From: an uncultured Poribacteria bacterium
Lineage (GTDB): Bacteria > Poribacteria > WGA-4E > WGA-3G
Assembly: GCA_951812525.1 (NCBI GenBank)
Contig: OX638316.1
Coordinates: 3,404,506-3,468,505, forward strand
DNA length: 64,000 nt
Direction of reading: 5' to 3'
Shown here: positions 28,951 to 43,074 of the stretch, piece after piece
Numbering within the stretch: the stretch's first letter is position 1
How the letters are laid out: the number at the start of each line of letters is the position of its first letter
Made by a program: the position numbers and the translations under genes
Notes under the pieces: generated by a model
What the model was told of the DNA's origin: nothing
Seen by the model: the letters and a program-made list of their open reading frames with translations, nothing else
Databases searched by the model: none

Positions 28951-30336
28951 TCATTCGGGTAGCGGACAGGTGCCCTCAAATTCAAGAAGCGAGGAAGTTT
29001 TATTTATATCAAGCTGCGGTTGCTGTCCCTTAAATTTAACTTTTAACTCTCCTGGACTTAAAAGTTCTACATCCAATTGAAGTATATCTTCAACGGTGTT
29101 TGATAACTTCAAATAGAGTACTGAAATTAAACGGGCAAACTTCTTAAATCTCTTCGGTGTTTTTCTAAATTGCCGATAGAGTTCTGGGATTGGTGAGGAG
29201 AGTGCTTGGAGCCTGTTTCCATATTGCGATGAGAGTTTTCCACGAATTCTATCCTCCAACAACATCTGATCAAAGACAGTGGCTTGCGTTAGAGAAGAAA
29301 CGGCATCACCTAACTTTTCATCAAGGAGAATCCGCTTGGCGCGCATATCGGCAATCTGATTAGGTGTAAGGTTTTTAAAATCCACTATCTCGGTCCGATG
29401 CTTAAATGTTTTTCCTGTGGTATCCTCGTTGAGGACAACTTCCCATACAGTTCCACCTTCTGTTGAAATTTGTGCAACCTCTCGTGCTTTTACCCATGTT
29501 GCGTCTTCCTCATGCGCGAAAGCGAGGACATCGTTTTGGTCCTTGCGCAATGAACACAGGAAAGCAACTTGTTCAGATGTAGTGGGTGTAAGGGTTAAAG
29601 AAATCTCCGTTGAATCCCAACGGACCTTTTGGAATGGGATAAAATAGTACTGTCCCTCTACTGAGCGAAACAGAGTACAGTTATCATCTTGATCAGGCAC
29701 AGTGCCAGCACTGTTCGCATCCTGACTTGAGGCATGTGGGCCTTGCGCACAGGAGATAGCATCAACAAGATTCTGAAGACCTGTGTTCCAATCTTCATGT
29801 AGGTTAACGTATTGAAGGTCTTGTAGAGTCTTTCCGTCTCCTATGTCAATATTCGGAATTTCACATTCGTTTAATTTGACAGGAATAAACCATACCCAAT
29901 CAGTAGGTCTCCGATGCAGCTCCTCAATCGCAACATTTAACTCTTCACTCATGTAAGTTTGATTACGCGCATTGGCTTCCTTTGAAAAACATGCGATAAA
30001 GAAATCTCCATGATGAATTGCTTGTTGGATTGCTTGTTTCCACGGTGTCCCAGGACCAATATTGTCCCTGTCCAACCAGATGTGAATATTGTGGGACGTG
30101 AGGTCTTGACAAAGGCGATCAACGGTAGCCTTGTTCTCATGGCAGTAAGAGATAAAGACGTGTCTCATCTCTCTAGCGTGTTTAATCTCCATGTTGGTAT
30201 GGTTAATTAATCGCGTTCTGAAGGCTTCACGGCGTTTTTTATGCGCTTCTGATCCCCGTCGAATTTCACCTGGATCAGGTGCATTTTCCTGCGTATAGGC
30301 TTCATAGTCAAATTCAACTTCTTTTGTAGTATTCAT
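28951..30336 (-). CDS. TIR-domain protein with unrecognised C-terminal region
   Basis: A 461-residue soluble protein. Residues about 55-195 are a TIR domain: VFISYCHEN is the first strand and loop, WLDRDNIGPGTPW the BB-loop region, and YMSEELNVA carries the glutamate at the position of the NADase catalytic residue. The C-terminal 250 residues contain a beta-rich segment (FIPFQKVRWDSTEISLTL) and a helical tail that I do not recognise. ATG 30336 is preferred to an earlier start because AGAGGT precedes it by 6 bases. It overlaps the BrnT-like gene by 23 bp. An NAD-depleting defence effector or a TIR signalling protein is a reasonable inference. Confidence 0.82.
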   Translation of the reverse strand: MNTTKEVEFDYEAYTQENAPDPGEIRRGSEAHKKRREAFRTRLINHTNMEIKHAREMRHVFISYCHENKATVDRLCQDLTSHNIHIWLDRDNIGPGTPWKQAIQQAIHHGDFFIACFSKEANARNQTYMSEELNVAIEELHRRPTDWVWFIPVKLNECEIPNIDIGDGKTLQDLQYVNLHEDWNTGLQNLVDAISCAQGPHASSQDANSAGTVPDQDDNCTLFRSVEGQYYFIPFQKVRWDSTEISLTLTPTTSEQVAFLCSLRKDQNDVLAFAHEEDATWVKAREVAQISTEGGTVWEVVLNEDTTGKTFKHRTEIVDFKNLTPNQIADMRAKRILLDEKLGDAVSSLTQATVFDQMLLEDRIRGKLSSQYGNRLQALSSPIPELYRQFRKTPKRFKKFARLISVLYLKLSNTVEDILQLDVELLSPGELKVKFKGQQPQLDINKTSSLLEFEGTCPLPE

Positions 30337-30592
30337 CGCTATACCTCTGCCCGGCATCGAATGCGGTAATTAAACGTTGGAGTGGTGCGTCTTCCTCAGA
30401 GTAAATAACTGATAAAATCCGTCCATTGGGAGTTTTTCCTATCAGCATCCACCGATCATTATGTCCTTGGGGATCGGGGATTTCGTATCGGTTTGGATCG
30501 TAGCACGCAGCGACTACCTCATAAAACTGGACATCGTGTTCTGTTTGCACCTGCAAATATTTATCTTCATCCCATACGAACCCGATATCCAT
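30314..30592 (-). CDS. BrnT-like (DUF4258) small protein
   Basis: A 92-residue protein. FVWDEDKYLQVQTEHDVQFYEVV, RWMLIGKTPNGRILSVIYSEE and the closing AGQRYSDEYYKR segment follow the order of BrnT toxins, RelE-fold ribonucleases normally paired with a BrnA antitoxin. No BrnA-like gene follows. Instead its end overlaps the TIR gene by 23 bp. AGGAAA lies 9 bases before the ATG. The match is by eye and remote; it could be a non-toxic DUF4258 relative. Confidence 0.65.
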   Translation of the reverse strand: MDIGFVWDEDKYLQVQTEHDVQFYEVVAACYDPNRYEIPDPQGHNDRWMLIGKTPNGRILSVIYSEEDAPLQRLITAFDAGQRYSDEYYKRS

Positions 30593-36793: not shown

Positions 36794-36906
36794 GGTAGGC
36801 GAGATTTTTAACCTCGCCGTTTTTCCTTTCAAAATCTCTCTACTGTAGGAGCGATCTCCCGATCGCGACTCTTATTACTCTGTAGGAGCGATCTCCTGAT
36901 CGCGAC
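36794..36906 (+). repeat. Cluster of three palindromic repeats
   Basis: One CGAGATT-type copy (36794-36819) and two consensus GCGATC copies (36844-36870, 36881-36906), 11 bp apart. Confidence 0.85.
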
Positions 36907-36950: not shown

Positions 36951-36979
36951 TTGACAGCCTCACAAAATCCTGGTATAAT
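36951..36979 (+). promoter_or_regulatory. Perfect consensus sigma70 promoter with no downstream ORF
   Basis: TTGACA (36951-36956), exactly 17 bp, TATAAT (36974-36979). Transcription would start near 36986 and run into 500 bp of AT-rich DNA without a recognisable gene. Confidence 0.75.
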
Positions 36980-37077
36980 TATAGTATACAAAAAACAAGT
37001 TAGACACTCACTTGAGTTATTCGCAGCAATCGGAATGTTACATTTTCCAGAAAATTATTTTTTCACAATTGAAAAAT

Positions 37078-37443
37078 AAAAAAGAACGCCTATAAACCCT
37101 TACAACTACTGGGTTTTCTACCAATATCTTCTCTACACTAAATGTTACACTAGTGTAACATTTTTCAAGGAAAACTTTACATAATAAAATATATTTATAA
37201 CGAAAAGGTAAAATAAAAATCAAGCGGATAATCCTCAACGAAAAATAGAAAAATAACGCCACATTCCCCGTTCCACTTGACATCTGCACGTCACAATTAC
37301 ACCAACATAGCTATAGTTCCAATTTGGATAAAAAAAATTATTCAAAAAATTCAAGAAAAAACGCCGATGACCCCTTACAGTAACTGGGTTCACAGCCCAA
37401 AAAGAAAAGTTACCAAGAAGTTACCATTTGGTAACTTTTTACC
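37078..37443 (+). ncRNA. Candidate structured RNA region: duplicated 38-bp element plus palindromes
   Basis: Two ungapped copies of a 38-bp element (37078-37115 and 37353-37390) match at 30 positions. Each contains a CCC...GGG hairpin and is followed within 25-30 bp by a TTAC-rich inverted repeat and a run of five Ts: a perfect 24-bp palindrome at 37140-37163 after copy one, and AAGTTACC/GGTAACTT after copy two. The order promoter, hairpin element, palindrome with T-run, then the same again, would suit a short RNA with terminators or a pair of regulatory leaders. It could equally be protein-binding DNA or a decayed mobile element. I recognise no known RNA class. Confidence 0.35.
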
Positions 37444-37659
37444 TAATGTTTCATGATATTAACATTGGGGTTTTGAAGTCATGAGCGAAACGCTGGTTTA
37501 TGTGTGTCCTGTCCCTCTTGTAGATGGGTTTTCAACTCCGTAATCCACGATAGGCGTTCACCGGTAGGGTCATTCAATTTTTCTGTAGGAGTGATATCCA
37601 AATTTTCCTCATACGCGGAAACCAAATATATTTTAGTCTTACATTTCTGGACTTTTCCC

Positions 37660-37726
37660 TGTAAGAGCGATTTCTTACTTGCGACTTTCTAACCAAACGG
37701 TTTATAAATCCGAAACTGAATAGCCC
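37660..37726 (+). repeat. Composite repeat: palindrome plus GAATAGCCC element
   Basis: A diverged palindrome (37660-37685, TGTAAGAGCGATTTCTTACT then TGCGAC) runs into GACTTTCTAACCAAACGG...GAATAGCCC (37683-37726), the second copy of the element at 2892-2936. Confidence 0.7.
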
Positions 37727-37952: not shown

Positions 37953-38048
37953 ACCAGTACTTTCACCAGTATCTTTACCAGTACTTTCACCAGTATCTTT
38001 ACCAGTACTTTCACCAGTATCTTTACCAGTATCTTTACCAGTACTTTC
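37953..38048 (+). repeat. 12-bp minisatellite, eight units
   Basis: Eight perfect 12-bp units of two kinds, A = ACCAGTACTTTC and B = ACCAGTATCTTT, in the order ABABABBA. It is followed by an 8-bp palindrome (CTATGAAA/TTTCATAG). All frames through it can stay open (24-bp period), but no start signal or family supports a protein. Confidence 0.9.
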
Positions 38049-38317
38049 ACCTATGAAATTTTCATAGTAACTATGTAACCAACCTTCCGGAAAAACCGCC
38101 AAAAACCCAGTCACCACGCGTGCGCATAGCCTCTTTTGAAATCAACCACTTTTTACTGTTTACTATGAAAACTGTGAAATTAAAGATTCACTACATGCGC
38201 GCTGATCCTGCCAATCCTGATTCAGACGATCTACCAACCATCAACCGTCAACTGCCGAAAACTAAATGACCCTTATATACTCTTCAGGGGCATTCAATTT
38301 TAGAATAATTTATATCC

Positions 38318-38343: not shown

Positions 38344-38482
38344 ATCTACAGAATCCTTCACATAAGTAAACTTATTTCTTAAACTAAATGACCCTATATA
38401 CTCTTAAGATCTTATTGATATATGTTTACTGAATGTGGTATTATTAACCTCAAGCAGCTTGGATTGTGAAGGAGAGAAAGTC

Positions 38483-41400
38483 GTGAACAAACCGCTAAAG
38501 GGGTTCATTACCTATTCACATGAGGATACAGCAGCAAAGGACGAGTTACGAAAACGCCTTGCCGTAATGGAGCAGCAAAACGAGTTAGTAACTTGGGACG
38601 ATGGTCAACTCACGCCCGGAGATAAAGCACTTCAGAAAGACATTCTCAAAAAGGTTCCTGATTCAAACTTGCTCCTTTACCTTGTTTCCGCTGCAAGTCT
38701 TGCTTCCAAAAACTGCAACAAGGAATTAGCTGAAGCATTAAAACAAGAGATTAGGATTATCCCGATTATCCTTGAGCATTGTGATTGGTTATATCACCAA
38801 ATCAGTGGCTTTGAAGTTCTTCCTCACAAAGGTAAGCCTATTTCCAAATGGGAAGATCCGAGTGAAGGCTGGCAAAATGTAGTGGATGGGATCCGAGAAG
38901 CCGTCGACCAAATAAAATCTCAGTCCGAACCGTCGTCTGGTAAGTCTGAAGAAAAATTGCTTGCTGAAGGAGCATTCAACCGTGGAAATTTTATGTTGAT
39001 GCTTGGACAGCTGGGTTTGGCAATAGAGTCCTATTCACAGGCTATTGATCTTATGCCTAGTGTTGCTAGTTCCTATAACAATCGTGGGATGGTTTATAGT
39101 GTCATAGGTAATAATGACTTGGCAATAAAAGATTATACGCAGGCGATACGACTCAAGTCTGATTATGCTGAGGCCTATAACAATCGCGCGGTTGTTTACG
39201 GTAATAAGAGGGAATATAATAGGGCGATTGAAGACTATACCAAGGCAATAGGACTTAAACCTGATTATGCTGAAGCCTATAATAATCGTGGTACTGTCTA
39301 CGGTGTCAAAAATCAACAGGATAAGGCGATTGAAGACTATACCAAGGCAATAAAATTTAAACCTGATTATGCTGAAGCCTATACTAATCGAGGTATTGAT
39401 TGCAGTAATAAGGGTGAGTATGACAGAGCGATTGAAGACTATACCAAAGCGATTGCACTCAGATTTGATTACGCTGAAGCCTATTTCAATCGCGGCAACG
39501 CTCATACAGAAAAAGGCGATACTAACAGTGCTCTTGAGGATTATAGTATAGCATTGGTCCTGAAACCTGATTATGTTGATGCCTATTACAATCGAGGAAG
39601 CACTTACCTCAAAACAGGAAAGTTTGATAAAGCTATAATAGATTATAGTAAGATGATAGGACTCAAACCAGAACTTGCTGAAGCCTATACTAATCGAGGT
39701 ATTGCTTACAACAGGAAAGGAGAAGTTGATAAAGCTATTAAAGATTTTCACAAAGCAATACAGCTAAAACCAGAGGATCATATGGCATATAGTAATCGTG
39801 GAATCGCTTACGTAGACAAAGGTGATTTTAATCTTGCTATAAAAGACCATAACAAAGCGATTGAACTGAACCCGGAGTATGCAAATTCCTATTACAACCG
39901 CGGTAATGCTTACGTCAGGAAGGGCGAATTTGACAAAGCGATAAAAGACTATACTCGGACAGTAGAATTAAATCCTCGGGATGCCAGTGCCTATGGTAAT
40001 CGTGGAGTCGCTTACAGCAACATCGGCAACTATGATAAAGCTATTGAGGACCATACTCGGGTAATAGCACTCAATTCAGAAAATGCTCTTGCCTACTACA
40101 ATCGCGGTGATGCCTACCATAAGAAAGGGAAGTTGAATCTTGCCCTTGAGGACTACAATATTGCCATAAGACTGGATCCGCATGATGCTCGGATTTATAC
40201 TAGTCGAGGTAATGTTTACTCGGACAAAGGTGAGCATGACCAAGCTATAGAAGATTATACAACAGCAATAAAATTTCAATCACAGTTTGCCCCCGCTGTT
40301 TTCTCTTATTACAATCGCGGTAATGCTTACCGTAGAAAGGGTGAGTACGACCAAGCCATAAAAAACTATACTACAGCGATAAAGCTTCAACCCAAACTTC
40401 TCCAAGCCTATTACAATCGTGCGGAAGTCTCGTTACGTATAGGAGAGTGGGAAAGAGCCCGAGCGGACCTTCATGTTGTTAAAAACAGTGGTGTTGATAT
40501 CATCGCTTCATTTCGCAACGATTACAAAAATGTTGAGGCATTTGAGCAGCAACATCGTGTTAAATTACCAAAAGACATCGCATTCCTGCTCACACAACGT
40601 CGGCGAAACCGTTACCCCAAGACACGAAATGTGTTAGATGTCCAAGGCAAACCTCTTGAATCTCCAGATGTAGTTAATTTACGCACACAACTTCGCAATG
40701 CTGGTACGCCGTTAGGCGAATACCTAGAAATAAAACCTGCTTTTGGCATCAACATTGTGCCTACTGAGGCGTTCATCGTGGACAGAACGACGCGGGATGA
40801 ACTCATTGGGGCACACCCCTCATCCGCAGATGTTTTGAAGCCGTTTTTACACGGACGAGATCTCAGACGATGGCATGTTGATGCACCAAACCAGTGGCTT
40901 ATTTTTGCCCACCGTGACATAGCAATAAACGATTATCCGGCAATCCTGAAACACTTGGAAAAATATCGAGAGTCTCTGAACAAGAGAAAAAGCAAACAGG
41001 AATGGTATGAGCTCCAAGCGTCCGCTACTAATGCAGCACGTTTTGCCCAACCGAAATTGGTTTGTCCAAACCTCTATAACCACCAAACCTTTGCGGTCGA
41101 TACCGCCGGTTATTATTATGGAAATACGTCCTATCTTATTCCAACCGACGAAATATGGCTTTGTGGTCTTCTGAATTCCCGTACTGTAGAGTGGTTCTAT
41201 TCCCAGGTATCGAACCAGTTAACAGGAGATGAACTTCGAGCACGTAGCGGCTATATGCAACAAATTCCGGTTCCGAATATCACATCAGAGCAAAAGATCT
41301 TGATTGCTAAGATCGTTGACTACCTAATCTATCTTCAGCAGCAACCGACGACAAATAGCAAGGATCTGAAGCACGCCCGTGACGCTATTATGCTCGGATA

Positions 41401-41650
41401 TTTTGAGCGAATCATTGACGGTCTTGTTTATGAAACTTATCTGTCTGAGGAACTTCATCAAGGAAGCAAGCAGTTTTTCCAGTCGCTGTTGGATGAAAAG
41501 TTACCACCGATCGAAGGTATTCAAGATGATAAAATGCCTGTATTCCGAGACATCTTTGAACTTCTGTATGAAAGAACACATCCGATCCGACGCAATCTCT
41601 TCTTTTTAGACAGTGTGAAATCGGTTCGCGTCATTGAGGGTAAACAGTGA
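38483..41650 (+). CDS. TIR-TPR protein fused to a TaqI-type target-recognition domain
   Basis: A 1055-residue multidomain protein. Residues about 1-145 are a TIR domain (GFITYSHED start; SKNCNKELAEAL holds the Glu expected for NADase activity). Residues 155-665 are fifteen 34-residue TPR units of the AYNNRG...AIEDYTKAI type. After a spacer, residues about 715-935 match the TaqI-like C-terminal specificity domain of type IIG restriction-modification enzymes (PLGEYLEIKPAFGINIV, VLKPFLHGRDLRRW, PKLVCPNL). A helical tail follows. There is no methyltransferase motif (NPPY) and no nuclease. The GTG start has AAGGAGAG 7 bases upstream; a GTG 16 codons earlier has none. It overlaps the ATPase gene by GTGA. 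A DNA-sensing TIR effector is the likely role. Confidence 0.88.
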   Translation: MNKPLKGFITYSHEDTAAKDELRKRLAVMEQQNELVTWDDGQLTPGDKALQKDILKKVPDSNLLLYLVSAASLASKNCNKELAEALKQEIRIIPIILEHCDWLYHQISGFEVLPHKGKPISKWEDPSEGWQNVVDGIREAVDQIKSQSEPSSGKSEEKLLAEGAFNRGNFMLMLGQLGLAIESYSQAIDLMPSVASSYNNRGMVYSVIGNNDLAIKDYTQAIRLKSDYAEAYNNRAVVYGNKREYNRAIEDYTKAIGLKPDYAEAYNNRGTVYGVKNQQDKAIEDYTKAIKFKPDYAEAYTNRGIDCSNKGEYDRAIEDYTKAIALRFDYAEAYFNRGNAHTEKGDTNSALEDYSIALVLKPDYVDAYYNRGSTYLKTGKFDKAIIDYSKMIGLKPELAEAYTNRGIAYNRKGEVDKAIKDFHKAIQLKPEDHMAYSNRGIAYVDKGDFNLAIKDHNKAIELNPEYANSYYNRGNAYVRKGEFDKAIKDYTRTVELNPRDASAYGNRGVAYSNIGNYDKAIEDHTRVIALNSENALAYYNRGDAYHKKGKLNLALEDYNIAIRLDPHDARIYTSRGNVYSDKGEHDQAIEDYTTAIKFQSQFAPAVFSYYNRGNAYRRKGEYDQAIKNYTTAIKLQPKLLQAYYNRAEVSLRIGEWERARADLHVVKNSGVDIIASFRNDYKNVEAFEQQHRVKLPKDIAFLLTQRRRNRYPKTRNVLDVQGKPLESPDVVNLRTQLRNAGTPLGEYLEIKPAFGINIVPTEAFIVDRTTRDELIGAHPSSADVLKPFLHGRDLRRWHVDAPNQWLIFAHRDIAINDYPAILKHLEKYRESLNKRKSKQEWYELQASATNAARFAQPKLVCPNLYNHQTFAVDTAGYYYGNTSYLIPTDEIWLCGLLNSRTVEWFYSQVSNQLTGDELRARSGYMQQIPVPNITSEQKILIAKIVDYLIYLQQQPTTNSKDLKHARDAIMLGYFERIIDGLVYETYLSEELHQGSKQFFQSLLDEKLPPIEGIQDDKMPVFRDIFELLYERTHPIRRNLFFLDSVKSVRVIEGKQ

Positions 41651-43074
41651 GAATTACTGACATTGAGATCAAAAACTTTAGAGCCTTCCACGGGACCTAT
41701 CAAATCAATCTGGACAAAACAGGAAAAAATCTACTGGTTTATGGTGAAAACGGGAGTGGAAAATCATCGCTATATCTCGCGTTAAAATCGTTCCTTGAAT
41801 CTGGTATATCTGCGGACAACCAAAATATTGAGTTTGAAAACCATCAAAATATCTTTATTGAAGATCCTGGTCATATTAAACTTTCCCTTCGCGCGGACCG
41901 ATGGTCAAAAAAGGATACTTATAAGTGGTCGCAAAGCGTTACGGAAGAGGCAACTGATGAGTTGATTACTGAGGCATCAAAGTCAAAGGGATTTCTTGAC
42001 TATAAATCACTGCTGGAAACGCACTATCTCCATCGCGAAAACGATTCCGTGAATTTATTCGATTTATTGGTTGAGGTACTTCTGGCAAGCACTATTAGCC
42101 CCTTGACGGATCGTAGTCTCGCTGATGATTGGACTGACATTCAGGAACCATTTCCCCGCAGAGGTGCAAAAAACCAAATTGTAAACCTTGAAAGACAGAT
42201 AGTGAATTTCAATAGAGAATTGGTCAACAGATTGGCAGAATTGCGTCCAAAGGTGTCTGAAATTCTCAATAAATTTGGATATACTGTTGCACTTGACTTC
42301 GATTTTCAGGGGATTACATACAATCAAAATCAGAAAACGCTTGATAATCAAGATATTTTCTTAAAAGTCGGATTCTTTGATACAGAAATACATGCACATC
42401 ATCTTCTCCTGAATGAAGCGAAGTTATCAGCAATAGCAATAGCAATCTATCTTTCGTCAATTCTGCTCCAGCCAGAAAGCGAATTGAAGATCCTTGCCCT
42501 TGATGATATCATAATCGGTTTGGACATGTCAAACCGCCTTCCAGTCCTTGATATTCTGGAAGAGCATTTCTCAGATTACCAAATCTTTTTGACAACTTAC
42601 GATATAGCATGGTATGAAATCGTCAAACAGCGTACAGAGCAGAAGAATTGGAAATACGTTGAATTCTATTTTGGAGAAACCGATGAATATGAAATTCCTA
42701 TCTATGTAGAGGATAAGGCATACCTTGAAAAAGCAACGGAACATCTCAATGCTAATGATTACAAAGCTTGTGCAATCTATGTTCGTACCGCTTTTGAAGC
42801 AGCAATCAAGCGATATTGTGAGAGAAAAAATCTCGCTGTTAAGTATCGAGAAAATCCGAAAGACTTGAAAAGCGAAGACTTCTGGGTGCCTATAAAAATG
42901 GAGATGGACGAATCAGATCTCATGCTTTTAGATTTGAGGATTGTTGACGAGGTTGAACAAGCTCGAAAATTTATCCTTAATGAATTAAGTCACGCTACCT
43001 TTGCGAACATCTACAGAAAAGAACTTGAGGATGCCATCGCATCCGTGGAACGCCTTGAAGCGGCGTTAACATAG
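41647..43074 (+). CDS. SMC/RecF-like AAA ATPase with possible HEPN-like C-terminus
   Basis: A 475-residue protein. ITDIEIKNFRAFHGTYQINL is the standard start of RecF/OLD/SMC-type ATPases; GENGSGKSS (residues 33-41) is Walker A; NEAKLSAIAIAIYLSSILL sits at the signature position; ILALDDIIIGLD is Walker B, followed by TTYD. The region between is short, without a long coiled coil. The last 120 residues (ACAIYVRTAFEAAIKRYCE ... ILNELSHAT) are helical with an Asn-x-x-x-His-like ending resembling HEPN/DUF4145 domains; this is inference. GTG start in a 4-bp overlap with the TIR-TPR-TRD gene shows coupled synthesis. Likely DNA-dependent sensing or motor partner. Confidence 0.87.
   Translation: MRITDIEIKNFRAFHGTYQINLDKTGKNLLVYGENGSGKSSLYLALKSFLESGISADNQNIEFENHQNIFIEDPGHIKLSLRADRWSKKDTYKWSQSVTEEATDELITEASKSKGFLDYKSLLETHYLHRENDSVNLFDLLVEVLLASTISPLTDRSLADDWTDIQEPFPRRGAKNQIVNLERQIVNFNRELVNRLAELRPKVSEILNKFGYTVALDFDFQGITYNQNQKTLDNQDIFLKVGFFDTEIHAHHLLLNEAKLSAIAIAIYLSSILLQPESELKILALDDIIIGLDMSNRLPVLDILEEHFSDYQIFLTTYDIAWYEIVKQRTEQKNWKYVEFYFGETDEYEIPIYVEDKAYLEKATEHLNANDYKACAIYVRTAFEAAIKRYCERKNLAVKYRENPKDLKSEDFWVPIKMEMDESDLMLLDLRIVDEVEQARKFILNELSHATFANIYRKELEDAIASVERLEAALT

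Follow-up and report, generated by a model that had tools for sequence, protein, structure and literature searches.

Orphan leaders of a DUF2280-like gene family dispersed in genomes of one Candidatus Poribacteria family

Background

Why does a promoter of perfect consensus face half a kilobase of DNA in which a short element is repeated and no gene is found? The question is raised by positions 36951 to 37456 of a 64,000-nucleotide stretch of the genome of an uncultured Poribacteria bacterium (contig OX638316.1), hereafter called the window. A preliminary description, made from the letters of the window alone, had likened the spot to a tandemly repeated small RNA or leader with a regulatory role. 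Our analysis gives good support to a related answer: the spot holds two orphan (that is, gene-less) units of a leader, in which the promoter, the half-sites and the palindromes are kept and the gene is absent.

Two repeat units behind one promoter

The promoter, TTGACA-17-TATAAT at 36951-36979 on the forward strand (the strand of all features of the spot), agrees with the sigma-70-type consensus at 12 of 12 positions, as had been stated, and a TG precedes its -10 box. A spacer delimited by cross-species alignment (36980-37032) separates it from the first repeat unit and probably contains the transcript start. The earlier statement that no credible gene follows also stands: the longest ORF between 36951 and 37456 has at most 83 aa, and four ORFs tested from this interval have no Pfam match at E ≤ 0.01. 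The window has no Rfam match at the gathering score.

A 38-bp sequence had been reported to occur twice with 30 of 38 positions identical, and it does so at 37078-37115 and 37353-37390; the full unit, however, is about 134 bp long. The first, unit A (37033-37166), is a full-length class-A element, matched end to end by an HMM built from other copies (nhmmer), and by a covariance model with E 7.6e-20 (G000:C1:3441538-3441671), unit A being itself one of the 65 training rows of that model. It begins with the left-end half-site AATGTTACAT (37034-37043; consensus AATGTTACAC), continues through the core CGCCTATAAACCCTTACAACTACTGGGTTTTC (37087-37118), a weak hairpin, and ends in the palindrome AAATGTTACACTAGTGTAACATTT, which is perfect over the 24 bp from 37140 to 37163 and is extended by a T-run to 37165; this end is a putative operator and/or intrinsic terminator. 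Beyond it, alignment reveals a tail common to the copies of other species (37167-37295), and the leader's gene is missing here, a protein search locating it elsewhere in the same genome.

Unit B (37314-37440, aligned part 37349-37440) is matched by the HMM from other copies with 44.5 bits (E 5.1e-12). Its left end is decayed (TAGTTCCAATTT), its core is CGCCGATGACCCCTTACAGTAACTGGGTTCAC (37362-37393), and it closes with a cluster of half-sites, GTTACC, GTTACC and GGTAAC, followed by five T's (37405-37440), in which an inverted repeat with perfect 12-bp arms spans 37405-37439. This inverted repeat and the 24-bp palindrome had both been seen previously. The GTTACC half-sites place unit B in class B, a sub-class different from that of unit A, and their arrangement matches the one found before a gene at G000:C1:3904918-3905661, in the window's own genome. 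Loci of three other species (G021, G029 and G005) can be aligned with the stretch that extends from the promoter and the spacer through unit A to about 110 nt past its end, so that the promoter and the spacer are part of what is conserved.

A dispersed repeat of another kind, CTGTAGGAGCGATCTCC(C/T)GATCGCGAC, surrounds the spot in four copies of falling likeness (36843-36906, 37583-37609, 37659-37685), with similar copies near other loci, and a short tandem repeat of the type CAGTA(C/T)TTTCACCAGTATCTTTAC is visible by eye at 37955-38050. Farther downstream, 38435-43074 encodes a TIR-TPR protein with a TaqI-like C-terminal specificity domain and then an AAA/SMC-type ATPase, which together look like a defence-type gene pair. 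At 28951-30357, on the minus strand, the N-terminal part of a 468-aa ORF reads by eye like another TIR domain. The repeats had been placed just upstream of the TIR locus, which lies about 1 kb downstream of them; a special link between the two is unsupported, and the nearness looks incidental because copies of the element precede many unrelated gene families.

A dispersed element with conserved ends

A DNA search of the window's genome found about a dozen further partial copies, and copies from this genome and its relatives were gathered and aligned. Their consensus starts with AAATGTTACACTTT, followed by a T-tract, the core AACCCTTAC....ACTGGGTT and finally AAATGTTACACnnGTGTAACATTT and T's, the whole being framed by AAATGTTACAC at the left and by the palindrome AAATGTTACACnnGTGTAACATTT with its T-run at the right. 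The covariance model finds 17 copies in the window's genome, and copies in 35 of 38 genomes of the same genus (0 to 45 per genome); in a scan of 84 genomes of the phylum, 48 have matches, all within two genera of one family, and none lies outside that family. Chance resemblance is ruled out by the copies across species. Our literature searches turned up no account of this element.

Conservation is far higher at both ends of the element than in its middle. In copies selected by their palindrome, an invariant class-A palindrome would be a circular finding, and we therefore ran a search with the interior only: among the matches listed, at least 20 of 22 palindrome positions agree in 136 of 161 distinct copies, and at least 13 of 14 left-end positions in 123 of the 161. 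Over the full length, mean identity is 68% among 65 class-A representatives, and at a peroxiredoxin locus in seven species the palindrome is retained while the middle has diverged. All counts over fetched loci refer to the matches listed, a non-random sample taken from the top of the hit lists, and orthologous copies in it lack independence unless counts are clustered by downstream protein. The T-run after the palindrome has a mode of 5, and the A-run before it a mode of 3 (143 copies, among the matches listed). The element ends as an intrinsic terminator does, in a hairpin and then a T-run, and this end may act as a terminator or attenuator.

The CCC...GGG hairpin noted earlier in each unit is present, but it folds weakly (z -2.0 in the first, -0.65 in the second), and the loss of the GGG arm in several copies rules it out as a conserved structure; for the terminal hairpins, z is -2.9 in the first unit and -4.6 in the second. 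From the class-A copies RNAalifold retains the palindrome as the sole structure and finds no covarying pair: conservation of structure in relatives extends to the palindrome but not to RNA covariation. Wobble changes number 23 against 17 A-C changes, without clear skew, and between classes the palindromes change on both arms, as would be compatible with RNA and with DNA alike. RNA pairing between the left end and the palindrome's right arm is not general, since class C breaks it, retaining GTTACAC at the left beside a GATACC palindrome in three of four copies.

Promoters and genes around the copies

Most copies lie ahead of unrelated host genes and point in the same direction as these. Among the matches listed, the nearest ORF of at least 90 aa to the right is co-oriented in 90 of 106 copies, opposite in 13 and absent in 3, and ORFs of at least 150 aa are co-oriented downstream of 125 of 134 copies. 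When copies are clustered by downstream protein and the gene family to which the leader belongs is excluded, 56 gene families are co-oriented versus 7 (p = 1.4e-10), and these downstream genes are diverse, belonging to many unrelated families. Promoters are also frequent: 102 of the 106 copies have 200 nt on both sides (among the matches listed), and within 200 nt upstream on the same strand a promoter matches the consensus at 12 of 12 positions in 21 of them and at 11 of 12 in 10, that is, in 31 of 102. Mononucleotide shuffles give none at 12/12 and 0.5 at 11/12; downstream of the real copies there are 5 at 11/12. Such an arrangement suggests that the element may exert portable control over the genes that follow it.

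The gene-bearing form and its half-sites

Two genes, each behind a leader, stand in succession at G000:C1:3904918-3906839: first a class-A leader with a gene of 286 aa, then a class-B leader with one of 248 aa. In both leaders the palindrome is followed directly by a Shine-Dalgarno sequence and ATG. These are the only two genes of the family found in the window's genome. A single query yields protein matches in 18 of 60 relatives, and an alignment used as query does so in 41 of 57 genomes of the bacterial family. The protein is about 205-310 aa long, with a DUF2280-like helix-turn-helix N-terminus: 13 of 13 aligned members match DUF2280 (PF10045) over the N-terminal 35 residues or so (best E 2.4e-6), although P0001 scores 20.4, below the Pfam cut-off of 24, and a long helical C-terminus extends beyond the match. 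Helices are predicted at 12-23 and 28-38, and the predicted structure is mainly helical (mean pLDDT 77, pTM 0.45); fold searches with it gave no convincing neighbour (best E 0.51 and 0.66), and the protein has no sequence match in the PDB and none among phage sequences.

We gathered 38 distinct gene-bearing leaders; a subsequent collection comprises 53 N-terminal matches that have a leader. Most of the gene-bearing leaders printed share a layout of half-site, T-tract, AACCC core, palindrome and Shine-Dalgarno sequence. A genome of the sister genus (G083) has many copies of the family gene (L308-L312, L321-L323); in several of these the leaders are almost the same and the genes are truncated. 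Eight other genomes, some of them incomplete assemblies, have no detected family protein; among the matches listed, the palindrome is intact in 30 of their 33 copies, against 106 of 128 in the remaining genomes, and the left end in 21 of 33, against 102 of 128. G009 and G033, with no protein match and one element each, belong to the remaining genomes in this comparison if their copies were retrieved. As the eight genomes keep intact palindromes, orphans need no protein in the same genome, a point against an operator role.

The palindrome arms vary by locus (among them GTTACAC, GTTACC, GATACC, CGTACC, TGTACC, TTACC, GATACAG and CGTACA), and the two arms within one locus agree, apart from a few leaders that lack a clear palindrome. 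Of 35 leaders tested, 16, covering six arm types, have an upstream half-site that fits their own palindrome arm (shuffle p ≤ 0.03). Some other leaders carry extra half-sites beside the palindrome, in either orientation, and some have tandem palindromes about two helical turns apart (by eye); the far upstream half-site differs from the palindrome in classes B and C and in L290. The half-site patterns point to protein-DNA recognition at least as much as to RNA structure, and we infer that arrays whose half-sites are movable and co-vary agree with such recognition better than with an RNA switch. Among full-length members, Arg at the start of helix 2 is found in 12 of 13 with half-sites ending in ACC, versus 0 of 18 others, an association that is not significant because the tree contains only two independent changes. 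The test excluded rows shorter than 200 aa and L057, L315_-1532, L318 and L319 (no clear palindrome), and the entry of L290 was corrected by hand; exceptions to the rule are L290 and the truncated genes L329 and L330.

Discussion

What, then, are the two units? We put at roughly 55% the probability that they are orphan promoter-leaders, with half-site operators and an attenuator, stemming from a gene family of one Candidatus Poribacteria family. Their identity as orphan leaders is well supported; the mechanism, an operator for the DUF2280-like protein and a terminator, is suggested by sequence patterns. In the complete form, the leader, with its half-site, T-tract, AACCCTTAC....ACTGGGTT core and half-site or palindrome cluster, leads directly into the Shine-Dalgarno sequence and ATG, and the DUF2280-like protein may regulate its own gene by binding the half-site cluster in the leader. 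The palindrome and T-run would end most transcripts from the upstream promoter, the unit thus behaving as a promoter-attenuator, and the leader, which has spread without its gene, could serve as a portable control module ahead of unrelated host genes. The regulatory leader of the preliminary description survives in that copies lie behind conserved strong promoters and end in a terminator-like palindrome; the tandem RNA fits less well, the element being dispersed in many copies, with a complete form that precedes a DUF2280-like gene, no covarying pair, and half-sites that suggest protein binding at least equally.

A different origin would be a non-autonomous MITE-like transposable element with terminal inverted repeats AAATGTTACAC/GTGTAACATTT, whose effect on neighbouring genes would be incidental. 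Inverted-repeat ends better conserved than the interior, and many copies without coding capacity, agree with this, as does presence or absence at orthologous loci: at the peroxiredoxin locus the element is full in 8 of 30 stretches (the stretch L171 being misplaced by the start pattern, and the G026 copy being L111) and decayed in one more, and at the NuoE locus, where no gene start was found in L206 and L212, it is present in 10 of 28, one more (L202) having joined ends only. Since the element comes and goes in this way, and given the joined ends of L202, a MITE-like history is conceivable. However, random insertion would not be expected to produce so strong a co-orientation with the downstream gene, the Shine-Dalgarno sequence and the gene fall outside the right 'end' in gene-bearing copies, and no target-site duplication is apparent at the peroxiredoxin locus, the sole locus compared and with distant relatives only. 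We consider this origin doubtful.

Two other features were seen at these loci. A short gene (MxKKLLETQFALCIEN...) lies before NuoE, with upstream sequence that differs by genome (L197, L201, L205, L220, L223 and others), and is sometimes fused directly to the element's end, as if mobile. In L166-L195, a small hairpin (such as ACGCG...CGCGT) precedes the Shine-Dalgarno sequence just ahead of the peroxiredoxin start; by eye, its stem changes between species, and it is present with or without the element.

The orphan leaders can be compared with known repeats. In REPIN/RAYT systems, as outlined in PMC8049555, dispersed palindromic repeats far outnumber the low-copy gene of the associated protein, and the palindromic copies of our element likewise far outnumber their low-copy gene; the family protein, however, shows no tyrosine-transposase family, DUF2280 being the only shared Pfam match, and the units are leaders of about 134 bp with promoters, co-oriented with genes. 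Correia elements, other promoter-bearing MITEs and terminator-like SPRITE repeats are portrayed in PMC10969869 as intergenic and near genes, with promoters or terminator-like sequence. The element resembles them in these respects, but its complete form is a gene's own leader, its half-sites diversify with the gene, and the distant comparison at the peroxiredoxin locus gave no target duplication.

If the copies formed a family of small RNAs acting in trans, each with a promoter, an RNA of about 130-250 nt and an intrinsic terminator, this would account for the enrichment of promoters and for the terminal hairpin with its T-run. The variable interior without covariation and the lack of an Rfam match in the window speak against it, as does the co-orientation of the element with the next gene, which suggests a role in cis, and we hold such a family to be improbable.

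It is also very unlikely that the element is a cos/pac-like site recognised by a small-terminase-like protein. The three half-sites around a T-tract in the leader recall lambda cosB, a resemblance that might hint at such a site. A table in PMC7760358 places a DUF2280 protein of an Acinetobacter prophage immediately ahead of the large terminase subunit, an adjacency that would fit as well, but our protein has no phage match, no phage genes were noticed by eye beside gene-bearing copies, and promoters and co-orientation are left unexplained. A type III-like toxin-antitoxin system, made of leader RNA, terminator and toxin, with the orphans as spare antitoxins, would have the same order of promoter, leader, terminator, Shine-Dalgarno sequence and gene, but it is hardly credible, no toxin family (ToxN/AbiQ-type included) appearing among Pfam or PADLOC matches and the leader having no tandem repeat array.

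To return to orphan promoter-leaders, a more speculative extension, which we advance tentatively and consider unlikely to hold in full, is a self-diversifying regulatory network. A DNA-binding protein resembling a terminase small subunit would have been recruited as a dedicated regulator, and its leader, turned into a portable promoter-attenuator, would have multiplied to as many as dozens of copies ahead of host genes; the operator code and the protein helix would diverge together, insulating paralogous circuits. The orphan leaders would suggest what the gene family with the DUF2280-like domain does, would show how the control region of a gene can spread without its gene, and would supply naturally matched pairs of protein and operator from which the recognition code could be read.
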